In this document: in pieces, positions 21,363 through 24,874 of the stretch
Layout: each line of letters opens with the position of its first letter
Numbering within the stretch: the stretch's first letter is position 1
Source: Chitinophagaceae bacterium
GTDB lineage: Bacteria; Bacteroidota; Bacteroidia; Chitinophagales; Chitinophagaceae
DNA: 64,000 bases
Assembly (NCBI GenBank): GCA_025449935.1
Contig: JANWIJ010000045.1
Span: 40,201-104,200 of the forward strand
Reading direction: 5' to 3'
Notes under the pieces: model-generated
What the model saw: only the letters and a program-made list of their open reading frames with translations
Databases searched by the model: none
Told to the model about the DNA's origin: nothing
Made by a program: the position numbers and the translations under genes

Positions 21363-22568
21363 CTATTTGATCTTCAGGTTCAAAGAAATAATATCGGATT
21401 TCATACCATTGGTCCGGGTGTAATGACCATAGCGCAATTCAAGCATATTCAAATGGCGGAAACCAAATACTCCTTTGGGTGGAGCGATGCGGAAACCCGC
21501 CCCGTAAAAATTTGTGTTGAACTTTGAAAGGTCATAATTACTGGTATAATAGGAATCCGCTGCTGTATGTGTCCTGTACGGAGCAAAATAATCAGCTGCT
21601 GTCTGGGTATAATACCGGTAAAAAGGTGTGAACGAAAAGAAAGGCGTGATCTTCACCGCTGTTTCCAGTTGCAGCGTATGTGCCGATATTCCCCAGTCAT
21701 CCTGGTAATACCGGTAAAAACTTCTCAGGATGACCTTGTCGCCTATAAAATAATTGGCCCTGAAACCCAGGGGGATCTTCAACCGGTTATCCGGGAGGTT
21801 CTCTACATGGTCTGAGTTATCCGCAAAATACACCCGGTGAAATGGCAAGCCGAGATATCCCTGTTGTTTGACCAACTCTGCAATAAACATTAATTGCAGG
21901 CGCTGGTTGATGATTTGCGAATAGGACAATGTACCACTGAATGAATTACGGGAAGCATGTTCATAATCATCATCTTCCTCCCCGCCGCTCCCACCTCCGG
22001 CCCGGAGTTCTATTGGGTAGATCAAACTCACCTGGTCAAGATAGACCTGCGCCCTGGCCGTAAACTCGCCGTTGCGGTTCTTTGTTTTTTGAGAAAAGCT
22101 CAGGTTCGCACCAATGGACTGGTAATCAAATTCACTGGAAAAAGAAATCCCTGCCCCTATGGTGTTGCCCTTCCTGGGATTTTCCATGGACCAATTAGCG
22201 GAAGGATATATCCTGGTATCAGCATAAGAAGCAGAGGAGATCGTATTGGGATCAACTTTATCGGAAGAGGCAGAAGTGTAATGATCGATACCTGCTTCCA
22301 GGTCGAAGCTGTGTTTCCTGTCCTTTTTATCCCATTTAGTTAATTTGACATCAATACCTGCCGAATAATCACTGAGTTTTTCGGTGCCGATACCACCGGT
22401 CACCGCGGAATTGTTTCCGTCCTGCCGGTAATAGCTGGTCACCAGGTTGGCTTCTTCAAATGTGAGTTTACGGCTTTTATAGCCGAGCGAATCCTTCGGG
22501 GCGGATTGAGCATAGGAACTGAAAATGGTTAGGAAGATTCCTACGACTGATAAACAAATTCTTTTCAT
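21363..22568 (-). CDS. DUF3570-like outer-membrane/beta-rich protein
   Basis: signal peptide MKRICLSVVGIFLTIFSSYAQS; many alternating aromatic/hydrophobic beta segments, C-terminal GHYTRTNGMKSDIISLNLKIK; genomic neighbours DUF4266/ApbE/thioredoxin. Confidence 0.82.
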   Translation of the reverse strand: MKRICLSVVGIFLTIFSSYAQSAPKDSLGYKSRKLTFEEANLVTSYYRQDGNNSAVTGGIGTEKLSDYSAGIDVKLTKWDKKDRKHSFDLEAGIDHYTSASSDKVDPNTISSASYADTRIYPSANWSMENPRKGNTIGAGISFSSEFDYQSIGANLSFSQKTKNRNGEFTARAQVYLDQVSLIYPIELRAGGGSGGEEDDDYEHASRNSFSGTLSYSQIINQRLQLMFIAELVKQQGYLGLPFHRVYFADNSDHVENLPDNRLKIPLGFRANYFIGDKVILRSFYRYYQDDWGISAHTLQLETAVKITPFFSFTPFYRYYTQTAADYFAPYRTHTAADSYYTSNYDLSKFNTNFYGAGFRIAPPKGVFGFRHLNMLELRYGHYTRTNGMKSDIISLNLKIK

Positions 22569-22597
22569 GAAAAGCGTTGATGTGGGTGAATAATGGA

Positions 22598-22834
22598 TCA
22601 ATTACAGCCGCAGCCACCGCCGGTCTTACCGCCGTTGGCACCCGAGGCCCCTTCCCGGTAGGTTTGAAAACTCATTTCGGTTTTTTCGATCTTACGGGCT
22701 CCCAATCCCATCTCACCATCATTCAGTTTATTTTTCTGATATTCCTTTACCGTGGTGCAGGACGCCATGAAAATCAGAAATCCAAGACAGGTAAGAATAA
22801 TTCCCCCGGCCTGGCCCTTGTTTTTTAGGTTCAT
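22598..22834 (-). CDS. DUF4266-like small lipoprotein
   Basis: 78 aa; lipobox FMASC; C-terminus GASGANGGKTGGGCGCN. Confidence 0.82.
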   Translation of the reverse strand: MNLKNKGQAGGIILTCLGFLIFMASCTTVKEYQKNKLNDGEMGLGARKIEKTEMSFQTYREGASGANGGKTGGGCGCN

Positions 22835-23787
22835 GATTGCAGGTTTATATTTTTGGATGTGTAAATCTTACCGCTGTCGTCAACAATTATGCAGCCAATT
22901 CCTTTCAGTTGGTTGATCATATTCAATCCTACTCTTACACCCATAATCATTACGGGTGTAGCCATAGCATCCGCTATTTCGGCATCCGGGCTTATAATGG
23001 TAACACTTTTAATACCCCTTACCGGTAAGCCGGTCTTAGGGTCAATGGTATGAGAATACTTTTTGCCATCGATCATAATGAATTTCTCATAATTACCTGA
23101 CGTCGCGATCGCCATTCCCGTAATGGAGAGATAAGAAAAAGGGTGATGAGCTGAGTCAGGATCTGCAATGCCAATCGTCCATTCTTTCCCGTTCGGCTGG
23201 CATCCCCAGGCTGTCAGGTCGCCTGCTGCATTGACGATTCCACTCTCAATGCCCCGTTGCCGCAGAATATACTTGGCTCTTTCCGCAGCGTATCCTTTAC
23301 CGATTCCGCCAAAACCGATCCGCATTCCCTTCTCTTTCAGGAAAACCGTGCAATTCTTTTCATCGAGCAATACATTCCTGTAATTAATCAGGTGAACCGC
23401 TTTCTTAGCGGTGGCCGCATCCGGCAAAGAGGTCATAGTCTTGTCGAAATTCCAGAGTTTTTTGTCCACCGATCCGTAAGTAATATCAAAAGCCCCCTGT
23501 GTAATATCCGATATCCTTTTTGACCGCTGGATAATGTCAAATACTTCCCGGTCAACTTTTACCGGAGCTATCCCCGCATTCCGGTTGATCAGACTGGCCT
23601 GGCTTGTTTCACTGAATGTAGTCAGCAGCTTTTCGATGCGGCTTATTTCCGCTATGGCGTCATTGATCCTGGTCATTGCCTCTTCTGCGTTATCCCATAC
23701 CACTGTAATCTCAAAACGATTGCCCATCAGCTTCAGGACTTTCCGGTGAAGCTTTAGCTCTTTAACCAGTGTATCAGTTGCGGGCAT
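22831..23787 (-). CDS. apbE: FAD:protein FMN transferase (ApbE)
   Basis: MGNRFEITV, GGIGKGYAAERAKYILRQRGIESGIVNAAGDL, YSHTIDPKTGLPV, IADAMATPVMIMG. Confidence 0.95.
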   Translation of the reverse strand: MPATDTLVKELKLHRKVLKLMGNRFEITVVWDNAEEAMTRINDAIAEISRIEKLLTTFSETSQASLINRNAGIAPVKVDREVFDIIQRSKRISDITQGAFDITYGSVDKKLWNFDKTMTSLPDAATAKKAVHLINYRNVLLDEKNCTVFLKEKGMRIGFGGIGKGYAAERAKYILRQRGIESGIVNAAGDLTAWGCQPNGKEWTIGIADPDSAHHPFSYLSITGMAIATSGNYEKFIMIDGKKYSHTIDPKTGLPVRGIKSVTIISPDAEIADAMATPVMIMGVRVGLNMINQLKGIGCIIVDDSGKIYTSKNINLQS

Positions 23788-24214
23788 TAATAGCCGTATT
23801 TATTTGACGGGTAAATTCTTCAGCTGTAGCATTCGGCAATCCTTCCCAGGATCTTAGCAGTTTCCCCTCAGCATTTAATAATACAGTATAAGGGAAGATC
23901 CCATCCCGGTCGTATTGGTCCGCAAGCTTGTCATTCTTTTTCTGGACCTCTTTCGGTAATTGATTTTTCCTGAGCCGGGGAAAATCCGCATTGACAAGGA
24001 CCAGGTTATTGTCCGCATAGTCTTTGAACACGGTTGTTTCGAATACCTGGTCATTAAGCCGGATACAGGGACCGCACCAGTCAGAACCCGAAAAATTCAG
24101 GAGAATGAACTTATGCTCCTTCTCCGCTTTCTTTTTAGCCTCCTCGAAATCTGTATCCCAGCCGGTAACGGAAACAAAAAGGATACCTGCCAGTAAAACT
24201 GAAAATAATCGCAT
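23774..24214 (-). CDS. thioredoxin-like family protein, exported
   Basis: signal peptide; FILLNFSGSDWCGPCIRLNDQVFE. Confidence 0.92.
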   Translation of the reverse strand: MRLFSVLLAGILFVSVTGWDTDFEEAKKKAEKEHKFILLNFSGSDWCGPCIRLNDQVFETTVFKDYADNNLVLVNADFPRLRKNQLPKEVQKKNDKLADQYDRDGIFPYTVLLNAEGKLLRSWEGLPNATAEEFTRQINTAINARN

Positions 24215-24400
24215 ACCGTGAATTTATTTTCAAAACTAACGGGACTAGAATAAAAATAGTATGATTTATATCACATTAACAAAGCATTACTAATAAAGAA
24301 CCGCCACCACCGGCATTCCGGGCATAATTTTTCCATAGCTTATCAGAAGATTCTTAACTATATCCTAACGGCCATTTGCAGTAAATTACAGCAGGAGGAA

Positions 24401-24874
24401 ATGGTTATGAAAAAGATATTTCTTATCCTGTTGGCAGGTTTGGTTACGATGCCTGCTTTTTCCCAGGTTTATTCAGGCCAGGCGGCCACCAAAACACCCG
24501 AACAAAAATTGAATGATGAGTACTGCTCGGGTATATTTCATTCTTCTGAAGGCAAGATCTTAGATGTGGCTTCCAGCACCAGTGTGCTGAGCTATATCAA
24601 TATTCTTGACTGGTTGCAGGGCCGCGTGGCAGGATTGCAGGTGTATACTTCGCGGACAGGGACCAGCATACCCGTGATGCGGGGTGGTGTGCCCGCCATA
24701 TATATTGATGAGTTACCTGTAAGCGCCGGCCAACTGAACATGATCAGTGTAAATGATATTGCCATCGTGAAAGTGATCAGGGGTCCGTTCTTTGGCGGTT
24801 TCAACAGCAGTTACGGAGCAATAGCCATCTATACTTTTGGTGGCGAAGAAGAGGAAGAAGAGGATGCAGATTAA
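24401..24874 (+). CDS. stand-alone TonB-dependent receptor plug-like secreted protein
   Basis: 157 aa with signal peptide; LDWLQGRVAGLQVYT...IPVMRGGVPAIYIDELPVSAGQLNMISVNDIAIVKVIRGPFFGGFNSSYGAIAIYT; ends in acidic tail, no barrel. Confidence 0.75.
   Translation: MVMKKIFLILLAGLVTMPAFSQVYSGQAATKTPEQKLNDEYCSGIFHSSEGKILDVASSTSVLSYINILDWLQGRVAGLQVYTSRTGTSIPVMRGGVPAIYIDELPVSAGQLNMISVNDIAIVKVIRGPFFGGFNSSYGAIAIYTFGGEEEEEEDAD

Follow-up and report, generated by a model that had tools for sequence, protein, structure and literature searches.

Operon structure and linkage of the four genes

The minus strand of the window (the whole stretch of 64,000 nucleotides of Chitinophagaceae DNA analysed here) carries a four-gene operon with an ApbE, and the question is which partner protein would receive FMN, and on which side of the membrane. 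All four reading frames were found where the original prediction had placed them, in the order Trx-ApbE-DUF4266-DUF3570. They encode a secreted thioredoxin-like protein (Trx, Thioredoxin_7; 23774..24214, minus strand) with a signal peptide and the active site DWCGPC; an ApbE FAD:protein FMN transferase of 318 aa without signal peptide (22831..23787, minus strand), identified by Pfam and by alignment to FmnB; a small DUF4266 lipoprotein of 78 aa with the lipobox Cys26 and the C-terminus GGGCGCN (22598..22834, minus strand); and a DUF3570 protein of 401 aa with a signal peptide and a predicted 16-strand outer-membrane beta barrel (21363..22568, minus strand). The family names were upheld, with Pfam matches above the cut-off for all four (Thioredoxin_7 5e-13, ApbE 2.9e-82, DUF4266 7.8e-17, DUF3570 1.4e-32), as were the overlaps of 14 nt between Trx and ApbE (23774-23787) and 4 nt between ApbE and DUF4266 (22831-22834), but the predicted overlap of DUF3570 with DUF4266 was not. 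Like its relatives (MK[KR]...), DUF3570 should start at the ATG at 22568 with MKRICLSVVGIFLTIFSSYAQ, a signal peptide, and a start there leaves a gap of 29 nt behind DUF4266. On the upstream side of the operon, a putative Bacteroidota-type -7 promoter-like element, TAGTTTTG, was noted by eye (24231..24238, minus strand). A divergent gene (24401-24874, plus strand) encodes a secreted protein of 157 aa that has no domain besides a TonB plug, ends in an acidic tail and lacks a barrel; similar genes lie near the same operon at loci L076 and L108.

Linkage was surveyed with the 78-aa DUF4266 as the only seed, and the best 80 of 518 loci were fetched. DUF3570 was found in 79 of the 80, ApbE in 73 and Trx in 66; the single locus lacking DUF3570 (L105) ends at a contig edge, and one of the seven loci with no adjoining ApbE is cut by a contig end. 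DUF4266-DUF3570 loci without an adjacent ApbE are L030, L043, L054, L067, L069 and L098, and duplicated DUF3570 or DUF4266-DUF3570 units occur inside single operons at L038, L050, L077 and L082. Across 61 genera of Chitinophagaceae, the DUF3570-positive and DUF4266-positive genomes were the same 24 (chance ~10^-17), and ApbE was present in all 24 of them versus 12 of the 37 others (P-value = 2e-8, Fisher test). The linkage of the four genes is far above chance. A co-occurrence survey had been proposed along with the original prediction of a redox module, which now has strong support from linkage and had already been put forward in published work (PMC8238504). In Chlorobia the same families occur in a different order (Trx-DUF4266-DUF3570-ApbE). 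Several DUF3570 copies, some in tandem, were also seen there (e.g. at G257:C45:32295-40488), with one ORF of 832 aa containing two DUF3570 domains.

The operon is of a published kind, and the original prediction was in large part already known. Meheust et al. (2021, eLife, PMC8238504) described 285 DsbD clusters, 227 with DUF3570 and 221 with DUF4266, and 316 four-gene clusters that lack DsbD; electrons were proposed to take a hybrid path over thiols and flavin. In the open literature searched, with preprints and closed papers outside its scope, DUF3570 and DUF4266 were named solely in that paper; a description of DUF3570 as a barrel may exist in other publications. The window operon contains all four families and no DsbD in the cluster; the genome has a DsbD_TM match on contig C52, and the operon lies on contig C45.

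The probable flavin acceptor and its proposed thiol partners

The earlier statement that the role of DUF3570 and DUF4266 is not established is outdated as regards DUF3570 flavinylation: the DUF3570 protein of Chlorobium luteolum, co-expressed with its own ApbE in E. coli, was flavinylated on the serines of two [S/T]GA[S/T] motifs (PMC8238504). The original prediction had offered the small lipoprotein and/or the DUF3570 protein as ApbE targets, and this experiment supports the second. The first fails for lack of a motif, since [S/T]GA[S/T] occurs in just 2 of the 103 distinct DUF4266 sequences from Bacteroidia and in none of the 20 from Chlorobia, and the conserved stretch E-[GAS]-[AS]-S-G leaves the required [S/T] position unfilled. 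DUF4266 therefore resembles a thiol component. Its C-terminus reads GG-C-x-C-N in all 150 sequences, the window's included, across two classes. The Asn after C-x-C is the invariant last residue of the protein (150/150). An AlphaFold model of DUF4266 had a pLDDT of 58. The Trx has a CGPC active site, and its best solved relative is the Chlamydia thioredoxin disulfide isomerase 2ju5 (E 1.4e-19). Gene linkage and the conserved cysteines suggest that electrons would pass from Trx to DUF4266 and on to FMN.

Cellular location of ApbE

The window protein has the ApbE fold with catalytic Ser, His and Asp: S230, H246 and D273 align with the catalytic S257, H273 and D301 of Listeria FmnB (7esa), and the catalytic Ser and His are retained in every linked ApbE. 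In 18 of 18 linked Chlorobia ApbEs the column of the window's D273 holds Gly, which may reflect an alignment shift. The original prediction had made ApbE extracytoplasmic, which the reading frame contradicts: it reads IRLLMPATDTLVKELKLHRKVLKLMGNRF..., with a stop upstream and nothing between, so that there is no space for a signal peptide. By a hydropathy test, not SignalP, the protein has neither a signal peptide nor a lipobox. An upstream start that would supply a signal peptide was ruled out, as none is in frame. By the same test, only 3 of 86 linked Bacteroidia ApbEs were flagged, and two of these are genuine (L084 and L100, both Bacteroidales members), the third (L094) being a core strand. 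Signal peptides were likewise found on 0 of 18 linked Chlorobia ApbEs versus 15 of 15 unlinked ones, and the positive controls were called in 80 of 81 Trx, 149 of 151 DUF3570 and 116 of 125 DUF4266 proteins. In the ApbE tree, the 89 Bacteroidia sequences that lack a signal peptide group in a single clade (support 0.97), the closest relatives of this clade possess one, and the Chlorobia ApbEs form a separate clade; loss of the signal peptide in Bacteroidia is the simplest reading of a tree whose deep support is weak.

The published model keeps flavinylation outside the cytosol, which here would require ApbE to reach the periplasm by a non-classical route, with electrons flowing from DsbD to Trx. 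We consider it unlikely. It agrees with the periplasmic location of most ApbEs, with the placement of such clusters alongside DsbD systems by Meheust et al. (PMC8238504) and with the two Bacteroidales operon members whose ApbE has a signal peptide; against it, neither the window nor ~100 relatives offer a frame that could encode a signal peptide on ApbE, and export by a Trx-ApbE frameshift fusion is ruled out by the many loci in which ApbE does not lie behind Trx. DsbD was present in 44 of 44 genomes, the window's included, as the model expects; being universal in this sample, it is uninformative as a discriminating partner. A second, periplasmic ApbE as the modifier was ruled out in ten genomes: the linked ApbE without signal peptide is the sole ApbE in 10 of 24 genomes, that of the window among them. 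An ApbE without signal peptide is expected to act in the cytosol, and the window's enzyme seems, from its sequence, to work there ahead of export of its target. The C. luteolum protein came mostly from the pellet and was purified denatured (PMC8238504), which implies that ApbE accepted a poorly soluble, unexported form; this is in keeping with a chain being modified while it is unfolded and not exported.

Predicted barrel and candidate FMN sites of DUF3570

An AlphaFold2 model built from 78 sequences (pLDDT 89.4, pTM 0.81), in which 16 long strands were counted, confidently depicts DUF3570 as a 16-strand outer-membrane beta barrel. Most of the gaps that follow an odd strand are long (14, 17, 2, 20, 29, 4, 27, 4) and those that follow an even strand short (5, 4, 5, 4, 3, 2, 11), which fits an outer-membrane barrel with both ends in the periplasm. 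Amphipathic alternation in the strands was 1.96 versus 1.12 for shuffled sequences. A signal peptide, an even number of amphipathic strands closing the barrel and a C-terminal strand are all present, as judged from the model only. The top PDB matches of the model were all outer-membrane barrels (OccK, OprD, AlgE, FadL and OmpG; Foldseek, E ~1e-11); a sequence search of the PDB gave no chain related to DUF3570, a streptavidin match at E 0.86 being noise.

Two candidate FMN sites lie in the loop between beta3 and beta4: site 1 at residues 95-101, DHYTSAS, with Ser101 as the predicted acceptor (22266..22286, minus strand), and site 2 at residues 111-114, SSAS, with Ser114 (22227..22238, minus strand). 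Loop lengths and the even-strand rule place both serines on the extracellular side of the modelled barrel. The neighbouring loop 1 (GNNSAVTGGIGTEK) is strongly conserved too.

The flavinylation rule is D-x-x-[S/T]-G-A-[S/T] (reviewed in PMC12052999); the published [S/T]GA[S/T] motif was derived from a sequence logo and did not serve as a criterion for cluster membership (PMC8238504). The window DUF3570 has no [S/T]GA[S/T], its aligned positions reading TSAS and SSAS. The full rule matched 32 of 32 Chlorobia and 0 of 78 sampled Bacteroidia DUF3570 sequences, the latter taken from the best DUF4266 matches. At site 1, 76 of the 78 instead read D-x-x-[S/T]-[S/A]-A-S, with A100 and S101 conserved in all 78 and D95 in 76. 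A non-canonical site 1 common to all sampled Bacteroidia argues for a motif variant rather than a stray protein. Site 2, which aligns with the second SGAS of Chlorobia, reads SSAS, SGAS, GASK or is lost among Bacteroidia, and is degenerate in some Sphingobacteriales, including several Mucilaginibacter. In Klebsiella fumarate reductase, a G-to-A change in the motif leaves ~50% flavinylation (PMC12052999). With the classical Gly absent, and labelling halved elsewhere by such a change, flavinylation of the window DUF3570 is uncertain; the G-to-[S/A] shift can be tolerated but is not proven to be functional.

Flavinylation might even have been lost from the Bacteroidia barrel, the shifted site being inert and ApbE serving another, unrecognised cytosolic protein. 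The absence of the canonical motif from all 78 sequences and the decay of site 2 in several Mucilaginibacter speak for such a loss; we judge it improbable, given that Ala and Ser at site 1 are invariant despite a flexible loop tip, that ApbE is kept in 73 of the best 80 of 518 loci and in 24 of 24 genomes, and that no FMN_bind protein was found in any DUF3570-positive genome (61 genera searched).

Proposed mechanism and significance

Most likely, the operon specifies an outer-membrane pore protein with covalently attached flavin, together with thiol electron donors. More specifically, we give about even odds to a scheme in which ApbE, acting in the cytosol, attaches FMN to the barrel precursor before export, and Trx and DUF4266 exchange electrons with this FMN. 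With FAD as the donor, ApbE would place FMN on Ser101 of the DUF3570 precursor, and perhaps on Ser114 as well. Sec would then export the precursor and BAM would fold it into the 16-strand barrel, so that FMN would sit in the beta3-beta4 loop, which would face outward. On the periplasmic side, the secreted Trx would exchange electrons with the C-G-C at the C-terminus of the DUF4266 lipoprotein, and this dithiol with the FMN of the barrel. In this way redox equivalents might get to or through the outer membrane with no heme involved, and their final partner would be extracellular Fe(III) or another acceptor. The operon, its linkage, the ApbE without signal peptide, the barrel model and the conserved motif form the sequence and model basis from which we infer flavinylation in the window organism, modification before export, the loop orientation, the electron path and the final partner. 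Taken as a whole, a heme-free outer-membrane conduit, in which a dedicated ApbE without signal peptide labels the barrel in the cytosol with covalent FMN at a shifted motif and the barrel is exported with its flavin, exposes it at the surface and is fed by Trx and the Cys-Gly-Cys-Asn lipoprotein, is a tentative proposal, probably wrong in one or another part.

Among the best 80 of 518 loci, recurrent neighbours were cytochrome b561 (at 11 loci), VIT1 (at 6) and a haem-binding protein (at 4), none of which adjoins the operon in the window; as hints they point to redox or iron, but they are not decisive. Metal handling, in which the barrel would serve as a channel or receptor for metal and the C-x-C-N lipoprotein as a metal chaperone, and flavin and Trx would keep iron or copper reduced, draws on the VIT1 iron transporter near those 6 loci, on heavy-metal efflux genes near a few and on 25 published VIT1 clusters (PMC8238504), and appears improbable with neighbour genes differing widely among genomes and no metal gene adjoining the window operon.

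In the prevailing view, exported flavinylated proteins are modified outside the cytosol. If ApbE is cytosolic and its target an outer-membrane barrel, the FMN-bearing chain must pass Sec and BAM, for which this analysis found no precedent in Sec export, and export of FAD would be unnecessary. If true, Bacteroidota and green sulfur bacteria would gain flavin-based electron movement at the outer membrane, and scans demanding [S/T]GA[S/T] or an ApbE signal peptide would overlook such systems. Taken together, the variant target motif, the predicted cytosolic location of ApbE and the modelled barrel amount to a sharper, testable hypothesis than the original prediction.

Comparison with known systems

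The published ApbE-DUF3570-Trx-DUF4266 clusters (PMC8238504) share with the window the same four families and the C-terminal C-x-C of DUF4266, and include the one experimentally flavinylated DUF3570; the window differs in that its cluster lacks DsbD, its DUF3570 has no [S/T]GA[S/T], its ApbE is without signal peptide and its gene order is not that of Chlorobia. Klebsiella pneumoniae has a cytosolic ApbE, and trypanosomatid fumarate reductase an ApbE domain, that likewise lack a signal peptide (PMC12052999), but their targets remain intracellular, whereas the presumed target in the window is an exported outer-membrane protein. The secreted thioredoxin-like fold of the window Trx is common to the Chlamydia isomerase 2ju5; the window protein has CGPC, and its presumed partner is DUF4266. 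The OccK/OprD, AlgE and FadL channels have the barrel fold of the DUF3570 model (TM ~0.42), but are channels without flavin, with identities of ~7-11% and no sequence relation to DUF3570. Moving electrons at or through the outer membrane by way of a beta barrel would be a trait in common with porin-cytochrome conduits such as MtrCAB. Unlike these, the window operon encodes no heme proteins, and the barrel itself would carry the cofactor as covalently bound FMN.
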